DNA from: Salinadaptatus halalkaliphilus
GTDB lineage: Archaea > Halobacteriota > Halobacteria > Halobacteriales > Natrialbaceae
Direction: 5' to 3'
Assembly (NCBI RefSeq): GCF_006543045.1
Contig: NZ_RBZW01000067.1
Location: 1 to 55,888, forward strand
Length of the DNA: 55,888 nt
The notes under the pieces are model-generated. The model had not been told where the DNA came from. It did not search any database and saw nothing but the letters and a program-made list of their open reading frames with translations. The translations under genes and the position numbers were made by a program. Positions within the stretch are counted from its first letter, which is position 1, and each line of letters opens with the position of its first letter. Below, piece after piece: positions 6,649-32,484 of this stretch.

Positions 6649-6960
6649 ATGAGTTCGAGTACTCGCGTCCACTTTCGTGCGCCCGAGCGATTGATCGAAC
6701 AGGCGGACGCGCTCGCCATCGCGGAGGACAAGAACCGAACTGACGTCCTCGTCGAGGCGCTCCGGGAGTATCTCGCGAACGCCAGTGACGAAGCGCCCGT
6801 TCAGCAGGCGATCGCGAACGCGTACTACGAGGACCGACTCGAGTACGAGCAGGTGAAAGCGATCGTCGGCGTCGAAACCGCGCAGAACTTCCGCGTGCTC
6901 AAAGGTCAGTTGACCGATGATCAGCTGAGTGACGACCTCGCGGCCGCGCTCGACGAATGA
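6649..6960 (+). CDS. Ribbon-helix-helix antitoxin of an RHH-PIN pair
   Basis: The 103-residue acidic product begins MSSSTRVHFRAPERLIEQ, a short beta-strand and helix start like RHH DNA-binding antitoxins, with the second helix RTDVLVEALREYL at residues about 30-42. The remainder is acidic and helical and would cap the PIN toxin encoded next. The stop overlaps the start of that gene by 4 bases (ATGA), a tight translational coupling typical of vapBC operons. The palindrome TACATGTA (6642-6649) overlaps the start codon and may be part of an autoregulatory operator. No paralogue of this antitoxin is visible elsewhere in the window; the gene at 1800 belongs to a different sequence group. Confidence 0.75.
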   Translation: MSSSTRVHFRAPERLIEQADALAIAEDKNRTDVLVEALREYLANASDEAPVQQAIANAYYEDRLEYEQVKAIVGVETAQNFRVLKGQLTDDQLSDDLAAALDE

Positions 6961-7460
6961 TCCTCGTCGCAGACACGTCCGCACTCGTCAGTATCGCGAG
7001 TACCGACGATGCACGGCACACCGCGCTCCCGATACTCCTGAACGGGTACGACGTCACCGCCCCGGAACACGTGATCGACGAACTCGAGTCGATCGCTGCG
7101 TACGAGGACGAACACGGAACGGCGGCACGAGCTATTCTCGACGAACAGGAGCGACTAACGGTCAGCGCGGTCGACCTCGATTCGGACTTCCCGCTCGACG
7201 ACGGCGAAAACGCGGCGGTACAGTTAGCCGAAGATATCGAAGCGGCGTTCTTCTACTGTGACGAATACAACCAGCTCGCGCTCGTCCACGCGTCGCTCTC
7301 TGACGCTCGACTCGTAACGACGCCTCGGCTCCTGAAGGCGTTCGTCGTCGACGGTGACCTCTCGGCATCGGCGGCCAAAGACCTGCTAGATGGCATTGCA
7401 GAGCGACGGAGTTGGGGCGGTAACGCGTACGTTCATCAGGCGACACGCCTGTTCGAGTGA
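6957..7460 (+). CDS. PIN-domain toxin (VapC-like ribonuclease)
   Basis: The 167-residue product starts MILVADTSALVSIAST, with the first PIN-domain acid at Asp6. Further acidic positions fit the fold: an ELESI segment near residue 44, the DGENAAVQLAEDI helix near residues 81-93, and a CDEYNQ segment near 101. PIN toxins of VapBC systems are Mg-dependent ribonucleases that cleave tRNA or rRNA. The segment SDARLVTTPRLLKAFVVDG replaces the usual late Asp motif and is seen in the DUF3368-like branch. The gene overlaps its RHH partner by 4 bases, and the module looks intact. The specific RNA target cannot be predicted. Confidence 0.82.
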   Translation: MILVADTSALVSIASTDDARHTALPILLNGYDVTAPEHVIDELESIAAYEDEHGTAARAILDEQERLTVSAVDLDSDFPLDDGENAAVQLAEDIEAAFFYCDEYNQLALVHASLSDARLVTTPRLLKAFVVDGDLSASAAKDLLDGIAERRSWGGNAYVHQATRLFE

Positions 7461-8665: not shown

Positions 8666-8860
8666 CGCCTCGAGGTGGTCCTCGCGTCGGCGTCGGCCGC
8701 GGACTCCGTGAGTTGCTGGCGGCGCGTGCGGACGACGACCTGGCCGTTCGAAAGCGGATCGGCGACGAGCTGTAAGCGGTGGGGAGTGTCCGTCGATCGG
8801 ACCAGTCGTCCTCACTATGTGTGTCCCACGTTTATGCCCTAGTCCCTATTCACGTAGGGT
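8666..8860. other. Spacer with possible coding remnant and the desaturase promoter
   Basis: One frame ends with a protein-like tail (RELLAARADDDLAVRKRIGD, stop at 8773-8775) that has no start and may be the relic of a deleted gene. Nearer the next gene, GTTTATGC (about 8830-8837) is placed as a TATA box for a start at 8861, and CCCTA (8844-8848) and TAGGG (8855-8859) form a small inverted repeat over the expected transcription start. Confidence 0.45.
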
Positions 8861-10345
8861 ATGCAATCGCTGGCCGGCGAGTCAGTCGTCGTGATCGGGA
8901 GCGGGTTCGGTGGGCTGGCAACGGCCTGTTATCTCGCCGACGCGGGTGCCGATGTCCGCGTTATCGAGAAGAACGACCAACTCGGCGGGCGGGCGAGTCG
9001 CCTCGAGCGCGACGGCTTTCGCTTCGATATGGGGCCGTCGTGGTATCTGATGCCGGACGTCTTCGAGCGGTTTTTCGGCGACTTCGATCGCACGCCGAGT
9101 GACTACTACGAACTGACCCATCTCGACCCACATTACCGCATTTGTTTCAAGGATGGCGATCGGGTCGACGTGACGCCCGATCTCGAGCGAACGAAAGACA
9201 TTTTCGAGGAGTACGAAGCCGGTGCCGGCGACGCCCTGGAGCGCTACCTCCAGAAGTCCCGGGAGAATTACGAGGTCGGGATGGAACACTTCGTCTATGA
9301 GGATCGGACGCAACTGCGGGACTACCTCGATCTCGACGTGGCACGGCAGGCTCGTGGCCTGTCCTTGCTCGGCTCGATGCAGGGTCACGTCGAGGACTAC
9401 TTCGAACATCCGAAGCTCCAACAGATCATGCAGTACACGCTGGTCTTTCTGGGCGGGTCGCCGACGAATACGCCGGCGCTGTACAACCTGATGAGCCACG
9501 TCGATTTCAATCTCGGCGTCTGGTACCCCGAGGGCGGTATCGGCAGCGTCGTCGACGGGATCGCCGATCTCGGTCGCGAACTCGGCGTCACGTACGAGAC
9601 CGGTCGACCGGCGACGGCGATCAAGGGTCGGGAAGGTGCGTTTCTCGTCGAGACGCCGTCGAAACCGCTGCGACCGGATCTGGTGGTCAGCAACGCCGAC
9701 TACGCCCACACGGAACGCGAGTTGTTGGCTCCCCAACAGCGCAGTTACGACGCCGATTACTGGGAGTCTCGGACGTACGCGCCGTCGGCGTTGCTGCTCT
9801 ATCTGGGTGTCGAGGGCGATGTCGCGGAGCTTGCCCACCACACGCTGGTCCTGCCGACCGACTGGAACGAACACTTCGACCAGATCTTCGAGGATCCCCA
9901 GTGGCCCGACGATCCGGCCTACTACGTCTGTGTGCCCTCCGAAACCGACGACAGCGTCGCGCCGGCGGGCCACAGCGCGCTGTTCGTGCTGGTCCCGATC
10001 GCGCCGGGTCTCGAGGACGGCCCCGAGACGCGGGATCGATACCGTGACCGAGTGCTGTCCGATCTCGCGGCGAACACCGGCTGTGACCTGCGGGATCGAA
10101 TCGTCCTCGAGGAGCGCTTTTGCGTCTCGGATTTCGCCCAGCGGTACAACAGTTTCGAGGGGACCGCGCTGGGGCTGGCCCACACCCTTCGCCAGACGGC
10201 GCTCTTTCGCCCGCCTCATCGATCGAAAGCAGTCGACGGGCTCTACTTCGTCGGGGGCGATACCACGCCGGGCATCGGGATGCCGATGTGTCTCATCAGC
10301 GGAGAGCTTACGGCCGAGACGGTGCTCGCGGATCACGGATCGTGA
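8861..10345 (+). CDS. crtD: Carotenoid desaturase (CrtD/CrtI family), bacterioruberin pathway
   Basis: The 494-residue flavoprotein begins with a Rossmann FAD-binding fold (residues about 8-44, including VVIGSGFGGLATACYL and VIEKNDQLGGRAS) and ends with YFVGGDTTPGIGMPMCL, the C-terminal FAD motif of phytoene-desaturase-type enzymes. The order desaturase-lyeJ-cruF matches the Haloarcula japonica bacterioruberin cluster, in which the first gene is the carotenoid 3,4-desaturase CrtD; phytoene desaturase CrtI usually lies elsewhere. I therefore favour CrtD over CrtI, but sequence alone does not separate them here. The stop codon overlaps the GTG of the next gene. A TATA-like element and the TAGGG half-site just before the ATG suggest a leaderless, regulated transcript. 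Confidence 0.85.
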   Translation: MQSLAGESVVVIGSGFGGLATACYLADAGADVRVIEKNDQLGGRASRLERDGFRFDMGPSWYLMPDVFERFFGDFDRTPSDYYELTHLDPHYRICFKDGDRVDVTPDLERTKDIFEEYEAGAGDALERYLQKSRENYEVGMEHFVYEDRTQLRDYLDLDVARQARGLSLLGSMQGHVEDYFEHPKLQQIMQYTLVFLGGSPTNTPALYNLMSHVDFNLGVWYPEGGIGSVVDGIADLGRELGVTYETGRPATAIKGREGAFLVETPSKPLRPDLVVSNADYAHTERELLAPQQRSYDADYWESRTYAPSALLLYLGVEGDVAELAHHTLVLPTDWNEHFDQIFEDPQWPDDPAYYVCVPSETDDSVAPAGHSALFVLVPIAPGLEDGPETRDRYRDRVLSDLAANTGCDLRDRIVLEERFCVSDFAQRYNSFEGTALGLAHTLRQTALFRPPHRSKAVDGLYFVGGDTTPGIGMPMCLISGELTAETVLADHGS

Positions 10346-11280
10346 CTGGGGATTCGGCCGATTCCGCGCGCGGGAGCGACGACGGAACCGGAACCGACGA
10401 GGGGAGAGGAGCCGGTTCCGGGGCCCCTCGAGCAGTCCGGGGATTTCGGTCGCAATGTGGCTATCTGCTGACGCTCTCGCGGCCGCGGTTCTGGTTGTAT
10501 CTGGCGGGGCCGGTCGTCGTCGGGGTCGTCTACGCGGCCGAGACGACTGGGGAACTGTTCGCACCGGCGGCGATCGCCCTGTTTGCGTACTTCCTGGTGC
10601 CGGCGAACGTGTTCCTCTACGGAATCAACGATGTCTTCGACCGGGAGATCGACGCGGCTAATCCGAAAAAGGACGAGCGAGAAGTCCGCTACCGCGGGCA
10701 GCGATCCGTCCCGATCGCCGTCGTCGCGTCGGCAGCGCTCTCGTTGGCGCTCGTCCCGTTGCTCCCGCCGGGAGCGCTGGGTTGGGTCGGCGTCTTCCTC
10801 GTTCTCGGGGCGGCCTACAGCGCGCCGCCCGTTCGGTTCAAGACAACGCCGCTGCTGGACTCGGTTTCGAACGGCCTCTATATCGCCCCGGCCGGCGCGG
10901 CCTACGTCGCTATCGCCGGCTCACAGCCGCCACTTGTGGCCGTCGTCGGCGGATGGCTCTGGGCGATGGGGATGCACACGTTCTCGGCGATTCCGGACAT
11001 CGAACCCGACCGGGAAACCGGGATCCGGACGACGGCGACGGTGCTTGGCCAGCGTCGAACCTACGCCTACTGCGGGGTGTGCTGGCTCGGGAGCGTCCTG
11101 GCCTTCGGCGCGCTCGAGTACCGCCTGGGGGCGGTAATGGCCGTTTATCCGGCCCTCGTCGCCGTCATCGCCGCCACGTCAGTTTCGGTCGATCGCGCCT
11201 ACTGGTGGTTTCCGGCGATCAACACCGTCGTCGGCACCGTACTTTCTCTCGGTGGACTCTGGGTGATTCTGCATGGATGA
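10342..11280 (+). CDS. lyeJ: Lycopene elongase/1,2-hydratase (UbiA family)
   Basis: From the GTG at 10342 the product has 312 residues: a hydrophilic leader of about 40 residues, then about eight membrane helices. The two Asp-rich prenyl-diphosphate motifs of UbiA prenyltransferases are present: NDVFDREIDAANPKKDE near residue 95 and DIEPDRETGIRTT near residue 219. LyeJ adds C5 units and water to lycopene on the way to bacterioruberin. The frame is open far upstream, but inside the desaturase gene, so the overlapping GTG start is preferred. The 3' end overlaps cruF by 8 bases. Other UbiA enzymes (menaquinone or archaeal lipid synthesis) look similar, but the neighbours support LyeJ. Confidence 0.88.
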   Translation: MTGDSADSARGSDDGTGTDEGRGAGSGAPRAVRGFRSQCGYLLTLSRPRFWLYLAGPVVVGVVYAAETTGELFAPAAIALFAYFLVPANVFLYGINDVFDREIDAANPKKDEREVRYRGQRSVPIAVVASAALSLALVPLLPPGALGWVGVFLVLGAAYSAPPVRFKTTPLLDSVSNGLYIAPAGAAYVAIAGSQPPLVAVVGGWLWAMGMHTFSAIPDIEPDRETGIRTTATVLGQRRTYAYCGVCWLGSVLAFGALEYRLGAVMAVYPALVAVIAATSVSVDRAYWWFPAINTVVGTVLSLGGLWVILHG

Positions 11281-12238
11281 ATCCGATTTTGGTGGAGAAT
11301 CGAGCGACGAGTCCCCGACCAGTCACGACCCTCCGACCGGTCGCCCGATCGACGAGCACGCTACTGGGACGGGGTCGACGGTGGCAGCCGATGACGGGTC
11401 GACGACGCGGGCAACGGTACAGCGTCGCCTCGAGAGCGTCATTCGGGAGAATCGGTTCACGATCGCGGTCGTCTTCCCGCTCGTCGGGGCGGTGACGCTG
11501 GTCGCCAGCGCCGAAGGGAGGCTGCCGGCCCCGCTCGCGTACAATCCGCTGTTGATCCTGTTCGGGACGCTGGTGATGCGGTCGCCGCTGCTGGTCGGGC
11601 TTGCACCCCGGATCGGCTGGTGGGCGCTCGGTTCGCTTGGCCTTTTGACGATCTACACCTACGCGATCGAACTCGTCGGCGTGCGAACCGACTGGCCCTA
11701 CGGTGCCTTCGAGTATACGATTCAGCTCGGGCCGATGGTACTGGGCGAGGTGCCACTCGCGCTGCCGGTGTTTTTCATCCCGCTGGTGTTGAACGCCTAC
11801 CTGCTGACGCTGCTCGTCCTGGGATCGTGGCGAAATCGCGCCGTCGTTCGGGTGCCGACGGCGATCGCCGCCGTCGTCGCGATCGATCTCGTCCTCGATC
11901 CGGCCGCCGTCGCCATCGGCTTCTGGGCGTTCGAACCGCCGGGGATCTACTACGGCGTCCCCGTCTCGAACTACGTCGGCTGGCTCATCTCCGGCAGCGT
12001 CGCCGTCGTCCTCGTCGATCTGGCGTTCGATCGAACCGCGCTGCTCGAGCGCGTCCGCGATTGCGAATTCATCCTCGACGATCTGGTGAGTTTCGTGTTG
12101 CTGTGGGGCGGGATCAACCTGCTCTATGGCAACTGGGTCGCCGCCGCCGTCGCCGGTGCGTTCTGTCTCGGCCTCGCGAGGACGGACCGATACGACCTCG
12201 AGATGGTGCGGACGGCCGTCCCCGGCCGCAGCGGGTGA
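11273..12238 (+). CDS. cruF: Bisanhydrobacterioruberin hydratase CruF
   Basis: The 321-residue product has a polar N-terminal tail of about 55 residues and then about seven to eight membrane helices. Segments such as LVGVRTDWPYGAFEYT (around residues 136-151) and NAYLLTLLVLG match the carotenoid-hydratase family CruF. The enzyme adds water to the terminal C5 units to finish bacterioruberin. The start overlaps lyeJ by 8 bases, so the three plus-strand genes form one operon. The unusually long charged tail could mean the true start is a later codon. The gene converges on a small membrane-protein gene with 80 bp between them. Confidence 0.87.
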   Translation: MDESDFGGESSDESPTSHDPPTGRPIDEHATGTGSTVAADDGSTTRATVQRRLESVIRENRFTIAVVFPLVGAVTLVASAEGRLPAPLAYNPLLILFGTLVMRSPLLVGLAPRIGWWALGSLGLLTIYTYAIELVGVRTDWPYGAFEYTIQLGPMVLGEVPLALPVFFIPLVLNAYLLTLLVLGSWRNRAVVRVPTAIAAVVAIDLVLDPAAVAIGFWAFEPPGIYYGVPVSNYVGWLISGSVAVVLVDLAFDRTALLERVRDCEFILDDLVSFVLLWGGINLLYGNWVAAAVAGAFCLGLARTDRYDLEMVRTAVPGRSG

Positions 12239-12650: not shown

Positions 12651-13601
12651 TTATCGGGTCGGGACGCTCCCTTCGTGGCCCGGCCCTCGCCGCTCCGGCT
12701 CGACCGTCGGGATCGCCGAGACGCGCTGAAAGACGGCCTCGGGGTCGCGATTCCAGTGCCAGTGCCATCGGGTCTTCGCGAGACACCACAGCTTCCGGGT
12801 CGTCGATAGCGACGGCTCACTCGAGAGCACGTCGTACTCCTGGTTGCGGATGAGCGCGTGGTGTTCGGCATAGAGGACGGCCGCGAGCAACACCGGCAAC
12901 TGGCAGTCCTCGGGGAGATAGCGGATTCCCGCGACCCCCTCTCGGTAGAGATCCTCAGCGCGCTGGAGTTCGTCGGCTATCGCCGCGGCGAACGCCTCCG
13001 AGTGCTCGAGGCGCTCGATTTGCTCGGTCGAGACGCCATGATTTCGCAGCGTCGACCGGGGAATGTAGATGCGGTCGCGGTCGACGACATCCTCGCGGAC
13101 GTCCCGCAGGAAGTTGGTCAACTGGAAGGCCTCGCCGAGCCGTCTGGCGTGGGGGAGGGCCGTCTCGTTCATCGCCGGTTCCATGATCGCGGTCATCATC
13201 ACGCCGACGGCGGCCGCCGAGCCGCGCATGTACGCCTCGAGGTCGGCGTACGTTTCGTACTGACTGGTCGTAATGTCGGCGGCCATCGCGTCGATAAACT
13301 CGTCGACCGTCTCGTCGGCGATGTCGTAGCGGTCGCGAAGTTCGACGAACGCCTCGAGCACTGGGTCCTCGGCCTCGATTTCGCCGAGTGCCTGTGCCCG
13401 CAGCGACTCGAGTTCGGCGCGCTGTTCGTCCGGGGGAACGCCGGCGGCATCGTCGACGATTTCGTCCGCGATACGAAAGAACGCGTAGAGGACGTGGGTC
13501 GCGTGACGGACTCGCTCGGGGAGGAATCTGGTCGCGAGGTAGAACGTCTTCCCGGTCCGCTTCTGTATCGCCTTGCTCGCGTCGATCTGTCGTTGATGCA
13601 T
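12651..13601 (-). CDS. crtB: Phytoene synthase
   Basis: The 316-residue protein carries both Asp-rich motifs of trans-isoprenyl head-to-head synthases: RIADEIVDD at residues 43-51 and LRDVREDVVDRDRIYIP at 165-181, plus YLATRFLP near the N terminus. CrtB condenses two geranylgeranyl diphosphates to phytoene, the first committed step towards lycopene and bacterioruberin. It lies on the opposite strand from the crtD-lyeJ-cruF operon, immediately downstream of a Bat-like regulator gene. A TATA box (13651-13657) and an upstream site resembling the Bat activating sequence (13664-13678) lie before it, giving a short leader of roughly 27 bases. The length is normal and the gene looks intact. Confidence 0.93.
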   Translation of the reverse strand: MHQRQIDASKAIQKRTGKTFYLATRFLPERVRHATHVLYAFFRIADEIVDDAAGVPPDEQRAELESLRAQALGEIEAEDPVLEAFVELRDRYDIADETVDEFIDAMAADITTSQYETYADLEAYMRGSAAAVGVMMTAIMEPAMNETALPHARRLGEAFQLTNFLRDVREDVVDRDRIYIPRSTLRNHGVSTEQIERLEHSEAFAAAIADELQRAEDLYREGVAGIRYLPEDCQLPVLLAAVLYAEHHALIRNQEYDVLSSEPSLSTTRKLWCLAKTRWHWHWNRDPEAVFQRVSAIPTVEPERRGPGHEGSVPTR

Positions 13602-13650
13602 TATGGCTCCGTTCCGATGGGGTCGGATGCCAATTCTACGACAAATGTCT

Positions 13651-13678
13651 ATAAAATACCTCTCCCCTACTAGTCAGG
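13651..13678 (-). promoter_or_regulatory. crtB promoter: TATA box plus Bat-type upstream activating sequence
   Basis: On the minus strand a TATA box (GGTATTTTATAG, core 13651-13657) is preceded, six bases further upstream, by a site at 13664-13678. Read on the plus strand this site is CCCCTACTAGTCAGG. From memory, the Halobacterium bop-regulon activating sequence bound by Bat is ACCCnACTAGTTnGG; 11 of its 13 fixed positions match here. Around it CCCTAC or its complement occurs at 13665-13670, 13689-13694, 13706-13711 and 13719-13724. Confidence 0.6.
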
Positions 13679-13720
13679 GATTACCGCGGTAGGGAGCCGA
13701 TACTCCCCTACCTGAGGTCC

Positions 13721-15391
13721 CTACTCGAGGGAGTAATCGATGCCACCGTCGAACAGCGCCTCGACGAGCTTGCGCTGTGCCGAGCGGAGGTGCTGGTGGA
13801 ACGTCGACCGCGAGATATCCATCGACGCGGCCAGTTCCTCGCCAGAGACGGCACGCGGCCATGCGAAGTAATCCGCAGCGTAGGCCTTGCGAAGCGCCAG
13901 TTGCTGGCGGTCGGTGAGTTCCGATTCGACGGTCGCGGCGAGATCCCAGGGCGTCCGCGAGGGCTGTTCGGTCTCGTGATAGCTGAGGAGCTCGACGCGG
14001 TCGTAACGCTCCTCGAGAACGTCGTAAATCGACCGAGCGGCCTGCCCGTTTCCGGCCTCGAGAGCGAGGTCGGCGATCCCGTCGGAAACCGTGAGCTGAC
14101 GGATCACCACGCCGTGTTCGCCGAGCGTCGTCACGAGCCCGCTACGGAGTGCGACTTCCAGGAGGAGACTGTCCTCGTAGGCTGCAACCACCGCTGCATC
14201 GACGATGGCGTCGACGGCGGTCGCCGCCTCGGTGACGTCGCCCTCGTGTTCGGCGAAGTCGGCTCGATCGACGTGGACGAACGCAAGCGGCGTTCCCTCG
14301 TCGTAGGCGAGGCCGCGATACTCGAGACTGGTCCCGAGTTCGTCGGCGAGTGCAGTGACGAACAGATCGGGGTCTTCGATCGCGAGTTCGACGTTGACGA
14401 CGCCGTCGCTGGTGACCATTCGCTGGGTTTCGATCGCGTTGATGGCGGTCGAAATCGTCCCGCCGAGGGCGTCGAGGACCGCCAGCTCTCGCTCGGTGAT
14501 TGCCCCAGTGTCGGCGACGTAGAGGACGACGACGCCGTAGGAGACGTCGCCATAGCTGATCGGGACCGCGACGACGGATCGAACGGGAGGGTCGGTTCCG
14601 GCGGGCCACCAATCGACATCCTCGCCCGCGGTCTCGTCTTCGAAGCGTTGGGACTTGCCGGTCTCGATCGCGCGAACGGCGGGATGAGTGGCGTCGCCGT
14701 CGTGGTTGACAGTTGGGAGCGTAATTTCGTCATCGATCGTGGATCCATCGGCACCCTCGAACTCCGTGGCGCCCGCCCACGCTTGCGGGGTGAGCCGTTG
14801 GCTCGTCACGTCGAGACGACCGACCCACGCGCCGACGTAGGGATCGGTCTCGACGAATTGGTCGCAGACGCGCCGTTCGATCGCTTCGCGCGAGGTGGCG
14901 CTGACGGCCGTATCGGTCACGTCCTGGACCAGTCCGTTTAACCGCTCGAGAACGTGCTCGAGCGCCTGGCGTTCAGCCCGGGCGCGCTTGGCCGAGTCCT
15001 CGGCAGCGATCTCGGCCAGCCGCCGGTCGGTGATATCGAGGTGGGCAACGGCAACCCGAACCGCACCATCGACCGTGAACCGAATCGCCCGCATCGTAAA
15101 CCACCGTTTCTCGTCGGGCGAGTGGCACGGATACTCCATCGCGAACTGGTCGCGGTCCCCCTCGAGAACGGCCTCGAGGCCGGTGACCGCACGACTGGCG
15201 TGACTATCATTGTCCTCGCTCATCGCGGCCGTCGCGACGTAGTTTACTCCCACGTAGTCGGTCGAATCGTCCGATCCGAACTCGCGCCAGGCTCGGTTGG
15301 TTAGTACGATTTTGCCGTCGCTATCGATGACGGCGACCGAAAACGGGAGCGTCTCGAGGGTCGCTGCAGCGAGCTCGTTCCCAGCGGACAT
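13721..15391 (-). CDS. Bat-like regulator (PAS-GAF-HTH_10)
   Basis: The 556-residue product starts MSAGNELAAATLETLPFSVA. An N-terminal PAS domain (residues about 12-125, with GAVRVAVAHLDITDRRLAE at its end) is followed by a coiled linker, a GAF domain (about 155-310) and a central bacterio-opsin-activator-type region. The C-terminal HTH_10 domain (last 60 residues) contains LTDRQQLALRKAYAADYFAW and MDISRSTFHQHLRSAQRKLV. This is the layout of Bat, the oxygen- and light-responsive activator of the bacterio-opsin and carotenoid genes in Halobacterium. It is 119 bp upstream of crtB on the same strand, with a Bat-site-like sequence in between. A start 8 residues earlier (15415) is possible. Many Bat paralogues exist, so the target assignment rests on location. 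Confidence 0.85.
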   Translation of the reverse strand: MSAGNELAAATLETLPFSVAVIDSDGKIVLTNRAWREFGSDDSTDYVGVNYVATAAMSEDNDSHASRAVTGLEAVLEGDRDQFAMEYPCHSPDEKRWFTMRAIRFTVDGAVRVAVAHLDITDRRLAEIAAEDSAKRARAERQALEHVLERLNGLVQDVTDTAVSATSREAIERRVCDQFVETDPYVGAWVGRLDVTSQRLTPQAWAGATEFEGADGSTIDDEITLPTVNHDGDATHPAVRAIETGKSQRFEDETAGEDVDWWPAGTDPPVRSVVAVPISYGDVSYGVVVLYVADTGAITERELAVLDALGGTISTAINAIETQRMVTSDGVVNVELAIEDPDLFVTALADELGTSLEYRGLAYDEGTPLAFVHVDRADFAEHEGDVTEAATAVDAIVDAAVVAAYEDSLLLEVALRSGLVTTLGEHGVVIRQLTVSDGIADLALEAGNGQAARSIYDVLEERYDRVELLSYHETEQPSRTPWDLAATVESELTDRQQLALRKAYAADYFAWPRAVSGEELAASMDISRSTFHQHLRSAQRKLVEALFDGGIDYSLE

Positions 15392-19757: not shown

Positions 19758-21473
19758 TTACGATGCGGAGTCGAACATCTGTGTGAGAAGTTTCCGTTCG
19801 GCTGCGCGGAGATGCTGGGTAAACGTCGCCCGGGAGACGCCGAGCTTCGAGGCTATCTCCGTGGTGTTGTGCTCGCGCGGTCGCTCGAAGTATCCCGCAT
19901 AGAAGGCGAGCTCGATCGCCTGCAGTTGTTTTTCCGTCATCGAGTCCAGTAGCTCGTCGAGGGTCTGCTCCCGTTCAGGATGGGGCCTCGAGCGGATCGA
20001 GCCGACAGTCGCCACCGGATATCGCTCCTGGAGCGCAGCGGTGAGCTCCTGAATGGCCGCGTCGGTCGGACAGACGACGGTCACGGTTACCCGTCCCCGT
20101 CGGACGACCGTCTCGAGGACACGTGCTCCGTGTGTGGCGAGGACGCCTTCGGGAGTCGGACGGGAGACGAACAGCTCACACCGACGCTTGGTATCCTCGA
20201 CCGCGACGGACGTGACCCCCTCGACCATCTCGGCAGCAGCGCGAATCGCCGACGCTGAACCCGAGTCGACGCGGATGATGTAGCACAAGTCGTCCTCGAG
20301 CGGGATGGCAGTCAGTATCTCAATCGATGTCCCATCCGGTAGGCACGTGGCGAACGCGCTCAGCGTCGTCCGTTCATCGCCGAACTCGTACTCGACGGCG
20401 ACCGGTGTCGTCGAGACGAGCGACCGTTTCCACTCGGCCGTCCGCAACGCGTAGCCGATCGTCCGGCCGTACGCCTGGAGCACGCTGACTTCGCGGTCGT
20501 CGACTTCGCCGCCGTCGGCAGCGTACACGGTGAGAGCACCGACGACGGTTCCGTCGTGTTCGATCGGGACTGCCACACCCGAAACGTCGTGGGCGTGATC
20601 GATTTCGTGCCACTCGGACCGCCTCGTGGCTGTGTCGATGTCCGTCCCGTCTCGAGCGTGGTGGTCGTCCGCCGATTCCCCTCGAGCGGTCGAGCACGTT
20701 GGTGGGAGAACGACCGGTTCCCGGCGTTCGAGCACAGCCTGCGCCGGATCGGGCTCTCGAGCCGATCCCTCCGCGCCGAGCACCGCCTCGAGAACGTCGT
20801 CGTCACCGGCAATGGACTGGACGAGAAGTTCGTTCGTCCCGTCACGAGTGGCGATCCACGCACAAGCGTAGTCACGCTCGTCGACGAGGTGTTGGCAGAA
20901 TTTGCGCGTGAGTCCGTCACGGGACGTCGTCGCGGTGACGATCTCGAGCATCGTCTCCTTGCTTCGGCGCTCACGGGCGAGTGCCCGCTCGGTTCGATAT
21001 GAGCGGACCGTCGCCTCGATCCGACGTGCCAGCACGTCGTCGCGGCCGGCAAGCGATCGTTTCGGGAGGTAGTCGGTGACCTGTCGACCGATGGCGTCGC
21101 TGGCTATCCCTTCGCTTCCGGCCCCGGTCACGAGCAAGAACGGGCGCTTCGGATCGATCTCGCGGACCTCGGCTAACAGCTCGAGGCCGGTGCCGTGTTC
21201 GAGCTGGTAGTCACAGACCACACAGTCCGGATCGGTCGACGCGAAGCGGTCCGCCGCTGCCGTGAGCGTGGTCGCCGTCGTAACGGAAAACCCCTCGCGC
21301 TGGTACTCGAGCACCGTTCCGGTCGAGTCGACCCACGCGTCGTCGTCGTCGACGAGTAACACGTCGATCTCGTCGACATCGTCCCGTCGGTCGCCGAGTG
21401 CATCCTGTGGGTCGTCCAATTGATCCTGTCGTTTACCGCACGGGTTCGGGCTCGTTTCGTCACCGCCTGTCAT
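19758..21473 (-). CDS. Receiver-GAF-HTH_10 response regulator
   Basis: From the ATG at 21473 the protein has 571 residues. The receiver domain (residues about 36-150) keeps all key residues: the acidic cluster VDDDD (41-45), phospho-acceptor Asp88 in CDYQ, Thr116 in LVTGAG and Lys138 in YLPKRS. A coiled linker and a GAF domain (about 175-340) follow, then a bacterio-opsin-activator region and a C-terminal HTH_10 domain containing EIASKLGVSRATFTQHLRAA. It is therefore a DNA-binding output of a two-component pathway, unlike PAS-only Bat proteins. A GTG start at 21533 would add 20 residues. The divergently transcribed kinase at 21705 is the likely partner. Confidence 0.87.
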   Translation of the reverse strand: MTGGDETSPNPCGKRQDQLDDPQDALGDRRDDVDEIDVLLVDDDDAWVDSTGTVLEYQREGFSVTTATTLTAAADRFASTDPDCVVCDYQLEHGTGLELLAEVREIDPKRPFLLVTGAGSEGIASDAIGRQVTDYLPKRSLAGRDDVLARRIEATVRSYRTERALARERRSKETMLEIVTATTSRDGLTRKFCQHLVDERDYACAWIATRDGTNELLVQSIAGDDDVLEAVLGAEGSAREPDPAQAVLERREPVVLPPTCSTARGESADDHHARDGTDIDTATRRSEWHEIDHAHDVSGVAVPIEHDGTVVGALTVYAADGGEVDDREVSVLQAYGRTIGYALRTAEWKRSLVSTTPVAVEYEFGDERTTLSAFATCLPDGTSIEILTAIPLEDDLCYIIRVDSGSASAIRAAAEMVEGVTSVAVEDTKRRCELFVSRPTPEGVLATHGARVLETVVRRGRVTVTVVCPTDAAIQELTAALQERYPVATVGSIRSRPHPEREQTLDELLDSMTEKQLQAIELAFYAGYFERPREHNTTEIASKLGVSRATFTQHLRAAERKLLTQMFDSAS

Positions 21474-21704
21474 GTTCGCTCGGGGGCAGCGTGTGGCGTT
21501 CGTGTTGTGACCGGCGACGAACGAATCCTCCACCAGGGGTGTTCGGTGAGTCTACGACGGTGGATCATTTTTCTGTGTTTTCCGGCCATCATAATAAATA
21601 CGATACCTTCGCATGGTGGTAGTATCTGTTCGAATTGTCGGTTCCGTACGCGTGACAGTCGTGTCGATGGAAAGTTATAGACAAGTGGCGTGTGTGGGTC
21701 AGCC

Positions 21705-23886: not shown

Positions 23887-26800
23887 ATGAGGGACAGGCG
23901 GACGGCTCTGCGGACAGTCTTCTTCGTGGCCGTGGCGCTGGTCGCGCTCGGCGTCTCCGGCGTTGCGGCTGCGGATGGGCCGGCGGGGATGGACGGGGAC
24001 GGAACCGAAAGCGAGCCCTACGAGATCACGAACGCGACGCAGCTACAGGCGATGGAGGAGGACCTCGGGGCGCACTACGTGCTCGTTGAGAACGTCGACG
24101 CGGACAGAGATGCCTTCGTTCCCATCGGCAATTCGACCTCGCAGTTTACTGGTTCCTTCGACGGACAGGGCCACACTGTGGAACGACTCTTCATCGACGA
24201 CAGCCGGGATTCCATCCCCAGCGAGGACGTGGGTCTGTTCGGCAACACGTCCGGGGCGACCATCGAGAACGTCGGTATCGAGGACGCAAACATTGTGGGC
24301 GAGTCCGGCGTCGGTGCGCTGATCGGCGTCGCAGACGACACAGACGTTTCAAACGTCTACGTCGGAGAGAAAGTGGTGGTCAGCGGCGACACCCGCTTCG
24401 GAGGCCTGATCGGGGTTCACGAGGGCTCGGGCACCGTCTCAGATAGTCTGGCTATCTGCGATTTGGGTTGCCGGTTCGACGACCCAGACACGAGCGGGCG
24501 TCTCGTCGGTACCGGAAGCGGGACGGTGACGGATTCGTACTACCGGTCCGGTTCCGACGACCACGAGATGATCGGTGAAGGGTACGATGGAGACGCACTG
24601 ACCGGCTCTGACTCGGTCGAAACGCTCCCCTTCGACTTCGACGACACGTGGATCGCGACCGACTACTATCCGATTCTCCAGGGGAGCGTCGACGACTACT
24701 CTCTCGAGGTTACCGACGAGGTCCTCACCGTCGGCGACACCACCAATGTAATCGTCGAATTGCGTCGACCCGTGATCGGGTCACAATCGGCGACCGAACC
24801 AGCCTCGATTACGACGAACGAGTACGTCTCGATCGACGGCCAAACGCTGACCGCCGAGCGCGGCGGAACAGGCACCGTGACGGCCTCGGCGTCGGGGTAC
24901 AGCGACGAGGCGTCCGTGACGATCACCGGGCCGCCGACGTTCGAGATCAGCGAGGCGGTGTTCTCCGACACCGTCGACGCGGGGGAGAACGTGACCGTCT
25001 CGGCGACCATCGAGAACGTCGGCACCGAGGCGGGCGAGACCGACGTGGAACTGGCCGTGGCTGACGAGACCGAAACCACCACCGTCGCCCTCGCCGACGG
25101 CGAGAGCGAGTCGGTCGAACTCGAGTACGAACTGCCGCCGGACATCGAAACCGGGTCGGTCGACGCGACTCTCTCGACAGCCGACGACAGCCTCGAGCAG
25201 TCAGTCGACGTGAACGGCAACGAGACGGTTTCGGGGACGCTCACCGACGGCGCGACCGGCGAGACCCTCTCGGGCGTCGACGTGCTGGTCGACGGGAGCG
25301 TCGCGGACACCACCGACGCGAACGGCGAGTACGAACTCGAGGTGCTGAATGCCTCCGCGGTCTCGGTCTCGGCGACGAAGACCGTCGGGGACGAGCACTC
25401 ACTCGAGATCTCGGCGGCGAACGCGACGACCGTCGACGGCGCGACGACGCTCGACCTGGCGCTGCACCCCGAACTGGCCGGGTCGGGAACCGAGAGCGAC
25501 CCCTACGAGATTTCCAACGCCCGCGAGTTGCAAGCGATGAACCAGGATCTCTCGGGTCACTACGTGCTCGTGGACGACGTGAACGCGAGCGGGACTGCTG
25601 AGTGGAACGACGGGAAGGGGTTCGACCCGGTCGGGACGGCCGACGATGATAGTGGTCCGGATCCAGCGATGTTCTCGGGCTCTCTCGACGGCCGGAACCA
25701 TTCGATAACGGGACTCTCGATCAACCGCTCGGACGAACCGTTCGTCGGTCTTTTCGGTGCCGCCGATACGACGACGATACGGGATCTCTCGCTCACGAAC
25801 GTAGATATCCGTGGTGCATCCGAGGAAGACGTAGGAGAGAGTACGGCAACCGGTGGGCTCGTCGGGCTATCCGGAAACCTCACTGTATCTTCAGTCCACG
25901 TCTCAGGGGCTATCAAAACGGGATACTCCGCTGGTGGTGTCGTCGGGAGCAATTACGGGGGGTATTACTCAGACGGTCCGATCCTCGACCTCAACGATGT
26001 CACGTCGGAAGTTAGCGTCACTACCTCCACCGACGATCTCGGTTCTGCCAGTGGCGGCGTCATCGGATTCTGGGGTGGGCCAGTGACGATTTCGAACTCA
26101 CGTACATCCGGAGACGTCCTCGCTAGAGGTGATCATGTCGGTGGGTTCGCCGGATGGATCGGTACTACGTGGGACGAAGTGGAACTGTCTACAATATCGA
26201 ACGTCTCCGCGACGGGGAACGTCACACCATCGGGCAGTGGGTCTATTGGATATGCTGGGGGGCTGGTAGGAACAGTATACAATGCCGCCATCGACAATGC
26301 CTCTGTGACCGGTGACGTAAAGTCCGGTGGTGGTGATCGTGCTGGAGGATTAATCGCTCGACCCCAATCAGAAACTCGTATCAATAACTCGTATACGACA
26401 GGCGAGGTCACTGGTGCGGATAATGTCGGCGGTCTGGTTGGACATAGCGCGGATGAGATCACTGACTCGTACGCCGCAGGCTCCATTAGTGGGGGAACCG
26501 TCGCCGGGATTGCCATCCTCTCGGTCGGAGAGATGGATAATGTCTACTGGAACGAGAGCACAACTGATGATGCAGTCACTTCCGGTGAAGACGCCGGAGC
26601 TATTGGCCTCACGCCCGATGAAATGACCGGTCCAGACGCAGTCGACAACATGGACGCTCTGGACTACGACGAGACGTGGCTCGCCGTCGACGACGACTAC
26701 CCACTGCTCGCGTGGCAGGTCGACAGCTACGACCTCGCGCTCGCGGACGACGAAATCGACGTGGGCGACACCACCGAGGCGACGGTCGACGTCACGCTCG

Positions 26801-29800
26801 AGGACGGCACGCAGACCAGCGCAACTGAGGCCTCGAGCTACACCACCGAGGGCAACGTCTCCGTCCAGGCGGGGACGGTCACGGGCGAGAGTTACGGCAC
26901 CGACACCGTGACCGCCACCGGCGGCGGCCACGCTGACGAGGCCTCGATCACCGCCTTCGGTTCGGACTACCGGATCGAGAGCGTCGACGCGCCGGAAATC
27001 GTCACTGCCGAGGGGTCCGTCACCGTCGACGCAACGATCGAAAACCGCGGCAACGCGGACGATACGGTCGACGTGATCCTCGCGTTCGACGGTCACGAAC
27101 TCGCGAGCGAACCGACGACGGTCGCGGCCGGCGGGGAAACGACGGCGACGGTAACCGGAATCATCCCCACGACCGCCGAAACCGGTGCGGGACGAAACCT
27201 CACCGTCACTGCGGCCGACGACGAGCTCAACGTATCCGTCGAGGTTCGCACCGCAGAACCCGTCTCGGGGACCGTGACCGACGGCGCGACCGGCGAGCCC
27301 GTTTCTGATCTCGAACTCGAGATAGACGGTGACCGCCCAACCGACGAGCCCGTCCTCACGGACGGGAACGGCTCGTACGCCTTCGATGCGGTCAACGGCA
27401 CGTCGCTCGAGGTCGCTGCAACCGACACCGTCGAGGGAGTCGACCTCGAGACGAACGACTCCGTGGACGTCGACGGCGAGACGTCGCTCGACCTCGAGCT
27501 GTGGCCCGCTCTCGCCGGCAACGGCACGGCGGAGCAGCCGTTCGAAATTTCGAACGCCCACGAACTGCAGGCGGTCGATCGGAACCTCTCGGCGCACTAC
27601 GTGCTCGTCGAGAACGTCAGCGCAAGTGAGACCGTCGAGTGGAACGCCGACGGCGACGATCCGCGGGGCTTCGATCCGATCGGCAGCGACGACGCCTTTG
27701 CGGGAACGTTCGACGGAGACGGTCACACCGTTTCCGGACTGTCCGTCGATCGGTCGGACCGAGGCGGGCTGTTCCACGAGATCGACGGGAGCGCCACTGT
27801 CGAACGCGTGACGCTCGAGGATGTCGACGTCGAGGGTTCGGTATGGACGGGGGCACTCGCCGGCCAAAACAACGGCGAGATCAGAAACGTCACCGCGACG
27901 GGCGATGTCGACGGCGGCGGATCCAATACGGGCGGACTGGTCGGATACAACGACGGCGGACGGATCGTCGACTCGTCGGCGAACGTCTCCGTGACCGGCA
28001 GTCATCACACGCCGAATGTTGGCGGACTGGTCGGCCGAAACAGCGGCGACATCGATCGCTCCGCCGCGAGCGGATTGACCATAACCTCGGGCAGTGTCGA
28101 TGGCAACGTCGGCGGACTGGTCGGGAGGCACGACGCCCTCTCCAGTATCGACGACTCATACGCCACGACGACCGTCAGCGGCAGTCAGGACACGACCGGC
28201 GGCCTCGTCGGGCAAAGCAATGGACCGATCACCGGCTCGTTCGCAGCCGGCCCCGTCGACGAGTCCGGGCTCGCAAACCGGGCCGGCGGGCTCGTCGGCG
28301 AAAACGGCCACGACCTCGAGCGCAGCTACTGGGAGACCAACGCGACGACCCAATCGGCTGCTTTCGGTGAGGACGGGGCCGACCCTGGCCTCACCGACGT
28401 CGCGGGCGTCACGACCGAGAACGCGACCGGCTTGACTGTGGTCACCGAACTCGAGGGCCTCGCGTTTACCGGCCCCTGGCAGGCCACCGAGGGCTATCCG
28501 CGACTCGAGTGGGAGCGTGTCGACGCCATCGAGGGCGTGCGAATAACGGGACTCGACGCCCCCGAGACCGTCGAGATCGGCGAGCAACTCACCGTCGAGG
28601 CGACCGTGATCAACGTCGACGAGGAGTCTCCCGGTGACCTCACGCTCTCGATCGCCAACGGCGAGGACACCACCGACGCGTCGTCGCTCGAGTCGCTCGC
28701 GCCCGGCGAGACCGAGACCGTCGCGTTTTCCTGGGAACCGGAGACGGGGGCGGACGGCACCTACACGATAACGGCCGCAACTGCGGACGACGTGGCGAAT
28801 CGAACGGTCGACGTCGGCGACATCGGCCTCGCGGAGCCTCGAGAGATCGATACGCCCGGAACGTACGAACTCGAGGACGATATCACGAGCACCGAGACGG
28901 TGTTCGAGATCACGGCGGACAACGTGGTCCTCGATGGCATTGGTCACACGGTCACTGGCGGCTCCGAGAACGCCACCGCGGCCGAAGACGAGGCCGGTAT
29001 TCGGGTTACCGGTGACAACGTCAGCGTTACGAACCTCACCGTTCGAGGGTGGGGAAGCGACGACGATCCGTTCAGTGACGGTGGCTACGGGATCCAGTAT
29101 GTCGGGACGGACGACGGAACCATCGCCGAGGTTACGGCGACCGAAAACGAATACGGCATCGGGGTTACCGAAGAACAGCCAGGACCGGAGGCCGCCGTCC
29201 CGTCGAACACCGTCGTCCACAATACCACCGCGACCGATAACGAGGTCGGTGTGGTGATCCGCGGGGCCGTCGGAAACGAAGCCGACAACACGACCGTTGC
29301 TGACAATACCATCGCTACCGCCGAATCGGCCGGAATTCAACTCGGACGGACGACCGATAGCACCATTGCTGGAAACACGGTGACCGAAACCGGATCCCAG
29401 GATTCCGGCTCGGCGGTGGGAATCTATGTCGACGACTCGGTCGACGCCGCCCTGGAACACAACACGGTTACGGAGTCTTCCCTAGGGATCCTGGTGGCCG
29501 GTTCGGATGGGACCGACCTGGTGAACAATACCGCACGGGACAATTTCGGCGGTGCGATCGGCATTCAGAACGCTCAGCAGACGACCGTCGACTATCTCGA
29601 CGTTGGCGCGTCGACCGCACCGAACACGACGGTCAGCTTCGAGGGCGAGAACGTGCTCGTCGCGGCGGTCGACGACCCCGACAAGAACCCGAACGCTGCG
29701 TCGATCGACCGATACCTGTCCGCCGAGTTCGCGACCGAGGACGGAACGGTTCGCAATCTCACCGTTCGCTACGACGACGACGATATCAGCCAGGTCGAGG

Positions 29801-32484
29801 AGGAGGATCTCCGTCTCTGGACGAACGCGAGCGGCTCGTGGACCGATCTCGAGAACTCGACGGTCGATCCCGACGCGGCAGTCGTCACCGTCGAGACGAT
29901 CGACGAAGGCGGTACCGTCGGTGCGTTCGCACCGCTCGACCCCTCCGCGCTCGCAATCGACGCGCTGGCGACGAACTCGCCGGTAGGCGAGGGCGACACG
30001 CTTTCTGTCGAAGCAACCGTGACGAACGTCGGCGAACGCGAGGCAGACCGGCCGATAACGCTCGAGATCGACGGCACAGCGGTCGACAGTCGACCCCTGT
30101 CGCTCGCGGGCGGTGACACTGACTCGATCGTCCTCGAGTGGGACACCGACGGCGCGGATCCTGGCGAGTACGAGGCCACCGTCGACGTCGACGACGAAAC
30201 GGCCACCACCACGGCGACCATCGAGGACGTGTCCGAACCGGCCGAATTCACGCTCGGTGTCGACGACGACCACGCCGTCACGGCGGGCGAGACCGCGACG
30301 ATTACCGCGACCGTCACGAACGAGGGCGACGAAGCGGGAACCCACCCCGTGGTGCTGTCGGACGGCGACGACGTACTCGACGAGACGCTCGTCTCGGTTC
30401 AGGGCGGCGGACACGAAACGGTCGATCTCGAGTGGGAGACCGACGAAACCGACATCGGCGAGCACGAGCTGACAGTTTCCGCCGCCGAGGACGCGGTGAC
30501 GACGGTGGTCTCGGTTGCCGAACCGACCGAACCGGCGGTTGTCGCGGTCGAACTCACCACTGTCACGGACACGGTGGACGCAGGCGACGACATCACCGTC
30601 GAGTACACGCTCGAGAACACGGGCACCGAAACGGCCACCCAGGAGATCGACCTACTCGTCGATGGGACGGTCGAAAACAGGTCGACGGTGTCGCTCGAGC
30701 CCGGCGAAATGCGGACGGAAACCAGGACCTACACGACGAGCGCGGACGACGCTCCTGCCCTCGTCGTCGCCCTCGAGAGCGCGGACGACAGCGACGACGC
30801 GACGGTTTCGGTCGAGACGCCAGCCGTCGATCCCTCGTTCCACGTCGAAATCGTCGACCTCGAGACCGAACTCACGGAAGGCGACGAGGTAGCAGTGACG
30901 GCGACCGTGACGAACACGGGCGACGAGGTCGACACGCAGGTCGTCTCGCTCGTCGATACCGGCTTCGCCGAGGAAGTTCGCGACACGGAATCGATTTCGC
31001 TCGAGCCCGGCGACTCGAGCGAGACGACACTGCAGTGGCAGACCGACCACGGCGACACGGGATCGGGAACCGTGACGGTCTCGAGCGATACCGAGACCGA
31101 CGCCGCGTTCGTGACGGTCGATCCCGACCGTGAGGTCGAGGGCGGCCGGGAACTCGAGCACGGTGGCACCTACGATCTCGGCGACGACATCGACGGCGAG
31201 AACGCGACAGTCGAGATCACTGGAAACGATATCGTCCTCGATGGAAACGGTAACACTATCGAGGCCAGTGGCTCCGACACCAGCACCATCCGCGTCGACG
31301 ATATCGAGAACGTCACCGTTCGAAACCTGACCGTCGTCCACGACGTCGACGAGTCGGCGCTCGAGATCGGCACGGCGTCGAACGTCACCGTCGAGGCGCT
31401 CACGGTCGGCGACATGAACGCCACGACCGCAAACACGACGCTTTCGTTCGGCGGCGAGCGCGTACGGGTCGGTGCGGCCGAGCTGCCGCCAGACGGCCCC
31501 GGTGATCGGGTGTCCCTCGAGCGGTACTTCGAGGCGACCGCCCCCGACGGCGGACAGCTGACCGATGTCGAACTCGGCTACGCGGGCCAAGAGACCGACG
31601 AGTTCGACGCAGCGACGATTACTCTCTGGAAGTTCGACGCCGAGACGGAGACCTGGACCGAACTCGAGGACTCGGCCGTGGATACAGCCGCCGGCGTCGT
31701 TTCGGTGGCTTCGATCACCGAATTCTCTACCTTCGGCGCGTACGCCCTCGAGGAGTCCGACTCGGATTCGGGTGGGAGAAGCGGTGGCGGCGGTGGCGGT
31801 GGCGGCTCCAGTGGTTCCGACGACACTGTGGCCCTCGAACTGTCGGACGTTCAGCTATCCACAGCTGCCCTCGAAGACGGAACGATCGAGCTGACGATTC
31901 CCGTAGACGCCGTTACCGGCGACGACCGCGTTACCGACCTCGAACTTCGGATCGGTACCGAGACGGTCGCAACGGCCGCTGACGTTGCACTCGAGAGCGA
32001 CGAAACGGATGCGATCACGTTCACCGACGTGGATCTCGCCGCCCTCGAGCCCGGCGAGTACGAGTTCGCCGTCGTGGGCGATGCGGACGCCGGCGGTATC
32101 CTGACGATCTCGGCGGCCGAGACGCGAACGCTGACGGTGACGGTCGTCGACTCGACGGACGACTCGCCCCTCGAGGGCGCGACCGTCGCGGTCGACGAAA
32201 CGTCTGTCGTGACCGACGCCGATGGGATCGCGACCGTCGCTGGTCTCGAGGACGGCTCGCATACGGTGACCGGTTCGGCCGACGACTACGAAGATGCCAC
32301 TACGACGGTCGAACTCGACGGCGAGGACGGCGATGCCTCGCTCGAACTCGAGTCCGAAACGGCGGCTACTACAGACGATAGCACGGCAGCCGACGCCGAC
32401 GCCGTTGCCGGTTTCGGGCCCGTCGCTGCGCTGGTGGGTGTGATACTTCTGCTGTCGGTTGCACTCAAGCGCCGCTACCGATAG
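23887..32484 (+). CDS. Giant modular secreted surface protein (GLUG, CARDB-like, NosD-type repeats; PGF-CTERM-like anchor)
   Basis: The 2,865-residue acidic protein has a Sec-type signal peptide (residues 1-29, hydrophobic core FFVAVALVALGVSGVAA). Three large units each start with a (D/G)GT-E-PYEI-NA-LQAM-type segment (near residues 38, 533 and 1211) followed by GLUG-type repeats. Carboxypeptidase-regulatory-like folds beginning VSGT(L/V)TDGATGE occur near 448 and 1126. CARDB-like Ig segments recur near 354, 1032, 1552, 2022, 2118, 2218 and 2318, and NosD-like beta-helix regions lie at about 1655-1930 and 2422-2520. A Gly-rich linker (about 2628-2642) precedes a last Ig pair and the C-terminal helix GFGPVAALVGVILLLSVALK with a basic end. 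That end resembles the archaeosortase PGF-CTERM signal but has Ala before Gly-Phe. Many N-x-S/T sequons are present. It is probably an adhesin or cell-surface structural protein. Confidence 0.88.
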   Translation: MRDRRTALRTVFFVAVALVALGVSGVAAADGPAGMDGDGTESEPYEITNATQLQAMEEDLGAHYVLVENVDADRDAFVPIGNSTSQFTGSFDGQGHTVERLFIDDSRDSIPSEDVGLFGNTSGATIENVGIEDANIVGESGVGALIGVADDTDVSNVYVGEKVVVSGDTRFGGLIGVHEGSGTVSDSLAICDLGCRFDDPDTSGRLVGTGSGTVTDSYYRSGSDDHEMIGEGYDGDALTGSDSVETLPFDFDDTWIATDYYPILQGSVDDYSLEVTDEVLTVGDTTNVIVELRRPVIGSQSATEPASITTNEYVSIDGQTLTAERGGTGTVTASASGYSDEASVTITGPPTFEISEAVFSDTVDAGENVTVSATIENVGTEAGETDVELAVADETETTTVALADGESESVELEYELPPDIETGSVDATLSTADDSLEQSVDVNGNETVSGTLTDGATGETLSGVDVLVDGSVADTTDANGEYELEVLNASAVSVSATKTVGDEHSLEISAANATTVDGATTLDLALHPELAGSGTESDPYEISNARELQAMNQDLSGHYVLVDDVNASGTAEWNDGKGFDPVGTADDDSGPDPAMFSGSLDGRNHSITGLSINRSDEPFVGLFGAADTTTIRDLSLTNVDIRGASEEDVGESTATGGLVGLSGNLTVSSVHVSGAIKTGYSAGGVVGSNYGGYYSDGPILDLNDVTSEVSVTTSTDDLGSASGGVIGFWGGPVTISNSRTSGDVLARGDHVGGFAGWIGTTWDEVELSTISNVSATGNVTPSGSGSIGYAGGLVGTVYNAAIDNASVTGDVKSGGGDRAGGLIARPQSETRINNSYTTGEVTGADNVGGLVGHSADEITDSYAAGSISGGTVAGIAILSVGEMDNVYWNESTTDDAVTSGEDAGAIGLTPDEMTGPDAVDNMDALDYDETWLAVDDDYPLLAWQVDSYDLALADDEIDVGDTTEATVDVTLEDGTQTSATEASSYTTEGNVSVQAGTVTGESYGTDTVTATGGGHADEASITAFGSDYRIESVDAPEIVTAEGSVTVDATIENRGNADDTVDVILAFDGHELASEPTTVAAGGETTATVTGIIPTTAETGAGRNLTVTAADDELNVSVEVRTAEPVSGTVTDGATGEPVSDLELEIDGDRPTDEPVLTDGNGSYAFDAVNGTSLEVAATDTVEGVDLETNDSVDVDGETSLDLELWPALAGNGTAEQPFEISNAHELQAVDRNLSAHYVLVENVSASETVEWNADGDDPRGFDPIGSDDAFAGTFDGDGHTVSGLSVDRSDRGGLFHEIDGSATVERVTLEDVDVEGSVWTGALAGQNNGEIRNVTATGDVDGGGSNTGGLVGYNDGGRIVDSSANVSVTGSHHTPNVGGLVGRNSGDIDRSAASGLTITSGSVDGNVGGLVGRHDALSSIDDSYATTTVSGSQDTTGGLVGQSNGPITGSFAAGPVDESGLANRAGGLVGENGHDLERSYWETNATTQSAAFGEDGADPGLTDVAGVTTENATGLTVVTELEGLAFTGPWQATEGYPRLEWERVDAIEGVRITGLDAPETVEIGEQLTVEATVINVDEESPGDLTLSIANGEDTTDASSLESLAPGETETVAFSWEPETGADGTYTITAATADDVANRTVDVGDIGLAEPREIDTPGTYELEDDITSTETVFEITADNVVLDGIGHTVTGGSENATAAEDEAGIRVTGDNVSVTNLTVRGWGSDDDPFSDGGYGIQYVGTDDGTIAEVTATENEYGIGVTEEQPGPEAAVPSNTVVHNTTATDNEVGVVIRGAVGNEADNTTVADNTIATAESAGIQLGRTTDSTIAGNTVTETGSQDSGSAVGIYVDDSVDAALEHNTVTESSLGILVAGSDGTDLVNNTARDNFGGAIGIQNAQQTTVDYLDVGASTAPNTTVSFEGENVLVAAVDDPDKNPNAASIDRYLSAEFATEDGTVRNLTVRYDDDDISQVEEEDLRLWTNASGSWTDLENSTVDPDAAVVTVETIDEGGTVGAFAPLDPSALAIDALATNSPVGEGDTLSVEATVTNVGEREADRPITLEIDGTAVDSRPLSLAGGDTDSIVLEWDTDGADPGEYEATVDVDDETATTTATIEDVSEPAEFTLGVDDDHAVTAGETATITATVTNEGDEAGTHPVVLSDGDDVLDETLVSVQGGGHETVDLEWETDETDIGEHELTVSAAEDAVTTVVSVAEPTEPAVVAVELTTVTDTVDAGDDITVEYTLENTGTETATQEIDLLVDGTVENRSTVSLEPGEMRTETRTYTTSADDAPALVVALESADDSDDATVSVETPAVDPSFHVEIVDLETELTEGDEVAVTATVTNTGDEVDTQVVSLVDTGFAEEVRDTESISLEPGDSSETTLQWQTDHGDTGSGTVTVSSDTETDAAFVTVDPDREVEGGRELEHGGTYDLGDDIDGENATVEITGNDIVLDGNGNTIEASGSDTSTIRVDDIENVTVRNLTVVHDVDESALEIGTASNVTVEALTVGDMNATTANTTLSFGGERVRVGAAELPPDGPGDRVSLERYFEATAPDGGQLTDVELGYAGQETDEFDAATITLWKFDAETETWTELEDSAVDTAAGVVSVASITEFSTFGAYALEESDSDSGGRSGGGGGGGGSSGSDDTVALELSDVQLSTAALEDGTIELTIPVDAVTGDDRVTDLELRIGTETVATAADVALESDETDAITFTDVDLAALEPGEYEFAVVGDADAGGILTISAAETRTLTVTVVDSTDDSPLEGATVAVDETSVVTDADGIATVAGLEDGSHTVTGSADDYEDATTTVELDGEDGDASLELESETAATTDDSTAADADAVAGFGPVAALVGVILLLSVALKRRYR

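Follow-up and report, generated by a model that had tools for sequence, protein, structure and literature searches.

A conserved bop-type UAS-like element at the crtB promoter of Salinadaptatus halalkaliphilus and its relatives in the Natrialbaceae

The carotenoid locus and the sequence ahead of crtB

The locus described here raises the question of whether an apparent activating sequence of the bacteriorhodopsin (bop) regulon, found in front of a carotenoid gene, is a sign of bacteriorhodopsin or belongs to carotenoid synthesis in its own right. The window, by which we mean the whole stretch of 55,888 nt that was analysed, is contig 6 of the 4.52 Mb genome of Salinadaptatus halalkaliphilus. 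It contains a bacterioruberin-type gene set, crtD–UbiA–CruF on the forward strand, which faces crtB on the reverse strand; a bat-like gene lies in tandem upstream of crtB, and the 119 bp that separate the two contain the crtB promoter (Table 1). The original prediction had noted that no bacteriorhodopsin gene lies nearby, and a search of the whole genome revealed no bacteriorhodopsin match at an E-value of 1e-60 or better. It yielded only two rhodopsin genes; among solved structures, the one on C48 is matched best by halorhodopsin and the one on C66 by sensory rhodopsin II. One Brp-type β-carotene cleavage gene was also identified, beside the halorhodopsin gene and on the opposite strand (L188, G000:C48). 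Elsewhere in the window, positions 6649–7460 hold two short overlapping genes that by eye resemble an antitoxin of the ribbon-helix-helix type with its PIN-domain partner, and positions 23887–32484 encode a putative surface protein of 2865 aa in which segments are repeated.

Table 1. Features of the carotenoid locus and its promoters (positions within the window)
Feature	Position	Strand	Remarks
crtD promoter	8809..8835	+	Place of the conserved element diverged, TCCTCACTATGTGTG; TATA-like TTTAT at 8831-8835
CCCTAT/GTAGGG pair	8844..8859	+	Between TATA-like box and crtD start
crtD/crtI-type carotenoid desaturase	8861..10345	+	Amino_oxidase PF01593; crtD by gene neighbourhood
UbiA prenyltransferase	10342..11280	+	PF01040; LyeJ-like by neighbourhood
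Carotenoid biosynthesis protein (CruF-like)	11273..12238	+	PF04240
crtB, phytoene synthase	12651..13601	-	SQS_PSY PF00494, E 7.7e-71
Promoter-proximal TTGTCGTA, downstream of crtB TATA box	13637..13644	-	Conserved in orthologous promoters
crtB TATA box TATTTTATA	13650..13658	-	Reads TATAAAATA on the + strand; five bases from the 15-mer
UAS-like element CCCTGACTAGTAGGGG (coding strand)	13664..13679	-	In register with the crtB promoters of orthologs
Palindromic core ACTAGT in the UAS-like element	13669-13674		Where orthologs have ACTAGT
Four CCCTAC/GTAGGG hexamers	13665..13724	.	Starts 13665, 13689, 13706, 13719
bat-like regulator, PAS_4 / GAF_2 / BAT / HTH_10	13721..15391	-	Domain matches; tandem, upstream of crtB

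Read in the direction of crtB, positions 13650–13679 consist of CCCTGACTAGTAGGGG, then AGAGG and then the TATA box TATTTTATA. It had been proposed that a 15-mer at this place matches 11 of the 13 fixed positions of the upstream activating sequence (UAS) of the bop regulon. Scoring against ACCCNACTAGTTNGG / ACCnnACTagTTnGG, which we take to be the consensus of that UAS, we recovered the 15-mer, CCCCTACTAGTCAGG, at 13664–13678 of the forward strand with two mismatches, and the TATA box was found where it had been placed; as crtB lies on the minus strand, however, the spelling originally given, although correct in sequence, was that of the strand opposite to the gene. In the crtB direction the best register is CCCTGACTAGTAGGG, which agrees with the same consensus at 10 of 13 fixed positions. 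When up to two mismatches were allowed, the 15-mer consensus had two sites in the window, compared with about 0.33 expected.

A cluster of CCCTAC hexamers had likewise been reported ahead of crtB. All four copies are present, the last of them (13719–13724) covering the bat stop codon, and four CCCTAC/GTAGGG within 62 bp were reached in none of 300 Markov-1 sequences (maximum 2); 19 other, commoner 6-mers also cluster at least four times somewhere in the G+C-rich window. Only the copy at 13665 belongs to the conserved element and recurs in the crtB promoters of relatives, where the extra copies were not seen, and the cluster was rejected as a conserved multi-site array.

Upstream of crtD, the CCCTA/TAGGG pair noted at the gene start does exist, but it lies downstream of the TATA-like box and off the conserved place, and was rejected as a site on its position. 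Among 39 crtD loci of relatives scored by script, 21 have CCC(T/C)A(C/T) at a distance of exactly 22 nt from the TTTA of their own TATA-like box, which it precedes; in four further loci (L010, L084, L032, L040) CCCTAC is followed by a CTTA box, which the pattern of the script missed. For 10 of 47 crtB promoters the same script found CCC(T/C)AC, here at 23 nt. Joint control of crtB and crtD is weakly suggested by promoter sequence of this kind. The conserved crtD promoter element of the Natrialbaceae, CCCTACNTANGTATGACNTACGTTTAT, occurs in genomes with and without bat and has diverged in the window genome.

Conservation and genomic occurrence of the crtB element

The family set comprised 125 whole genomes (Natrialbaceae by named relatives), in 121 of which the crtB promoter was read; a separate sample held 80 named crtB loci. 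Left out of the promoter table were G048 and G124, which had no crtB match at an E-value of 1e-70 or better, and G068 and G087, for which the only match was not crtB and crtB was not searched; where Natrialba-type genomes have crtB in duplicate, we took the copy next to bat. Far from being absent from orthologous crtB promoters, the element was present in 102 of the 121, with (A)CCCCACTAGTGAGGG as its consensus, and in 99 of these 102 it stands 5 nt from the TATA box. The mean in-register match to ACTAGTGAGGG was 9.42 of 11, compared with 1.6–3.9 at the 11 other offsets printed, and only 7 of 5100 mononucleotide-shuffled promoters passed the element threshold. Among the 19 promoters below that threshold are those of G022, which has ACTGGTGAGGG farther from crtB than the 135-nt cut, and G120, which has GTGAGGG before a weaker TATA box and was scored as having no element.

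Counted from the start of the TATA box, GGG at −8 to −6 is 96–100 % conserved, and in the left half T at −14 reaches 89 % and A at −13 reaches 78 %. The family consensus, ACCCCACTAGTGAGG, is one fixed position off the consensus assumed for the UAS. In the 26 named loci with bat upstream, (A)CCCCACTAGTGAGGG, or CATAGTGAGGG in Natrinema, stands directly before TATTTTATA. The right half in the window genome, AGTAGGGG, departs from the GTGAGGG of the family at two columns, whose conservation is 85 % and 92 %. On the other side of the TATA box, TTGTCGTA is a possible promoter-proximal element; of the 102 element-bearing promoters, 53 contain exact TGTCGTA close to the TATA box, and single columns are 76–98 % conserved.

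The element occurs near-exclusively at crtB. With up to three mismatches, ACTAGTGAGGG-N5-TNTTTTATA matched in 93 of the 125 genomes, with 17 matches outside crtB against 31 (manual count) for the reversed control, and crtB was its only match in the window genome, where CCCNACTAGTNAGGG with up to two mismatches gave 23 matches (reversed control 116), the sole exact one at crtB, and CCCTACTAGTCAGGG with up to three gave 26 (reversed control 163); in the own-genome and 125-genome scans alike the reversed controls contain GATC, possibly common here, and so overstate chance. The genome scan suggested with the original prediction as a way of listing the genes under the motif thus revealed no regulon in this genome, as no excess over the reversed control was seen. 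Nor was any such element seen in the inspected stretches of the rhodopsin and brp promoters of the same genome.

Likeness to the bop regulon

Two Halobacterium-type genomes, located via the bop gene, were used for comparison: G204 (bop 100 % identical), with ATACCCCACTAGCTTGGGTC before brp and CACCCAAACTGATGGGGTG before crtB1, and G211 (bop 92 %), with ACCATACTGATTGGG before bop and CTCCAAACTGGTGGGG before crtB1. Judged by its sequence, the crtB site is a bop-type UAS, because the family consensus (ACCCCACTAGTGAGGG) and the brp site of G204 (ACCCCACTAGCTTGGG) share their first ten bases. The two kinds of site also have in common a palindrome-like ACTAGT/ACTGRT core between ACC and GGG, as well as a position directly upstream of the TATA region. 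In the literature on Halobacterium, bop, brp and crtB1 form the Bat regulon (PMC1502140, PMC1447603, PMC1885257), so that a crtB gene is itself a member, and binding of Bat to the UAS is stated in some sources and left open in others. In Halobacterium, bop and crtB1 are in addition under the control of the small zinc-finger protein Brz (PMC2253796), which acts on the same kind of target, crtB. The crtB site nevertheless differs from the UAS of the bop regulon in that its right half is GTGAGGG in the family, or AGGGG in the window genome, rather than TT-GGG; that the family element is held at a rigid 5 nt from a strong TATTTTATA; and that it is found in a genome with no detected bacteriorhodopsin and is kept in 40 of the 59 genomes that have no ortholog of the linked bat.

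Outside the family, bop adjoins a Bat homologue in two Haloarchaeobius-type genomes (L261, L263), with the site ACTAGTTCGG. The crtB promoter carries CCCAACTGGTTTTGC in four of six members of Haloarchaeobius, and CCCAACTGGTTT in Haladaptatus, Haloarchaeobius and one MAG (L058, L060, L066, L077); in most other crtB promoters outside the family no such site was found.

The gene next to crtB was confirmed as encoding the PAS-GAF-HTH_10 Bat-like protein that had been predicted, with the architecture of the Bat family, namely PAS/GAF sensor domains, BAT and a C-terminal HTH_10. Its HTH recognition segment, RSTFHQHLRSAQRKL, resembles that of Halobacterium Bat, PSTYHQHLQAAKQKL, with HQHL shared, and the corresponding segments of the seven other paralogues printed for this genome differ. 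Unlike the bop-linked Bats, to which it is 33–36 % identical over the aligned part, it is linked to crtB rather than bop, and in the tree its clade (support 100/100) is separate from the Halobacterium/bop Bat clade.

Taken together, we consider it probable that the bop-type UAS module at crtB represents an old switch of carotenoid synthesis, shared with the bop, brp and crtB1 regulon, rather than a sign of bacteriorhodopsin.

Possible readers of the element and meaning for carotenoid control

The question of which protein would read the element turns first on the neighbouring Bat-like protein, which may be dedicated to crtB and activate it directly through the element. Its ortholog was identified in 62 of the 125 family genomes, the window genome included (E-value 2.6e-173 or better, next best 3.4e-92), in a sharply bimodal distribution; all 62 carry the element, and bat lies directly upstream of crtB, in tandem, in 26 of the 80 named loci. 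Furthermore, the left half ACTAG is commoner where bat is present (35/62 vs 9/59; Fisher p 3.7e-6), and ACTRGT-type sites also occur in distant bat–crtB tandems. In disagreement with a dedicated role, however, 40 of the 59 genomes without an ortholog keep the element (G039, scored as bat-less, carries a 71 % identical C-terminal bat piece beside crtB), and six bat-less genomes of genus g16 share CATAGTGAGGG with their bat-bearing sisters. On the tree of crtB, which alone served as species tree, 11 bat changes are needed among element-bearing genomes, and in five well-supported independent pairs differing in bat about four were unchanged in either half of the element, such that the left-half association vanishes (median p 1). 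We therefore regard a dedicated role as unlikely, and the claim that Bat acts at the site survives only in part, as the element accompanies every ortholog but is found in many genomes without one. Because so many bat-less genomes keep the element, and bat changes mostly leave it unchanged, the distribution indicates that it persists after bat loss and that another factor must be able to use the site. The Bat-like protein would then be at most one of the factors acting there, and the reader in bat-less genomes may be another HTH_10 protein or something else, e.g. Brz.

Two sets of related genes were observed alongside these. At 19758–21533 of the window, 6 kb from the first, another HTH_10 regulator is encoded, which combines a receiver domain of the response-regulator type with GAF and BAT. 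A second and far more distant bat–crtB tandem exists in L251, L252 and L258 (G029, G030 and G033) and in L254 and L255 (G103 and G106), where crtB is 53–59 % identical and is preceded by ACTAGTTAGG or ACTGGTAAGG, the former in G029, G030 and G033.

It is also conceivable, although we think it quite unlikely, that in most of the family GTGAGGG is read either by a zinc-finger protein like Brz or by an HTH_10 paralogue of about 650 aa whose recognition segment is SRPTFHEHLRTAEAKL, and that in the window genome the paralogue was lost and the right half drifted, with Bat left on ACTAGT. The nearest HTH_10 domain in bat-less genomes has SRPTFHEHLRTAEAKL where Bat has RSTFHQHLR, and this HEHL-type paralogue, which forms its own clade (98/100), was strongly matched in 99 of the 125 genomes and is absent from the window genome. 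TGAGGG was found in 80 of 98 genomes with the paralogue and in 2 of 23 without it (p 6e-11), whilst bat shows no right-half association (44/62 vs 38/59, p 0.56) and the paralogue none with the left half; the reported effect of Brz on crtB1 points the same way. Most of the 23 paralogue-less genomes, however, sit in lineages without the whole module, the crtB tree has only four paralogue changes among module-bearing genomes, with two well-supported pairs, and G011 and G103 keep TGAGGG without the paralogue. All such associations between half-sites and regulators are genome counts resting on few independent events, and we did not rely on them. Although the HEHL-type paralogue is common in the family, it is not among the 46 HTH_10 matches of the window genome (G000).

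The genome of the window, like others, may have several TFBs, and GTGAGGG could be a BRE-like extension of the core promoter that serves one particular TFB/TBP pair, with no gene-specific regulator involved. The near-complete conservation of GGG and the rigid spacing are in keeping with this; the UAS–TATA module was not above control at other genes, however, unlike the expectation for a general core element, and the left half is conserved as well, making this reading improbable. Chance resemblance in a G+C-rich genome, where about 0.3 sites per window are expected for the bare 15-mer consensus when two mismatches are allowed, is refuted by the recurrence of the element at a fixed spacing in so large a part of the family promoters and retains next to no probability.

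For the preferred reading, that of an old carotenoid switch shared with the bop regulon, we propose a module made up of the element, 5 nt, TATTTTATA and then the proximal TTGTCGTA, in which a bop-type UAS would be joined with the crtB TATA box. Bound to the element, and so immediately ahead of the TATA box, a regulator would help to recruit TBP/TFB, and would in this way set the amount of phytoene synthase and hence that of bacterioruberin. An HTH_10 protein of the Bat family is the most likely regulator, with the tandem Bat-like protein as the best candidate in the window genome; the element itself would be independent of the tandem Bat, because many relatives keep it without bat. More tentatively, the bop-type UAS might have been an ancestral crtB carotenoid switch first, with matching sites at crtD, and have been taken over later by bop and brp; it would have two parts, ACTAGT read by Bat and GTGAGGG by a second HTH_10 paralogue, the two readers being exchangeable. 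If so, lineages would lose one reader and keep the switch.

Little is known of how bacterioruberin synthesis is controlled outside Halobacterium, and our searches of the open-licence literature listed no work on promoter elements of crtB in Natrialbaceae. The footprint described here narrows the target to an exact stretch of 30 bp, in which essential bases can be predicted and which is not tied to bacteriorhodopsin, and the natural losses of bat within the family offer a test of Bat as a reader of the UAS.
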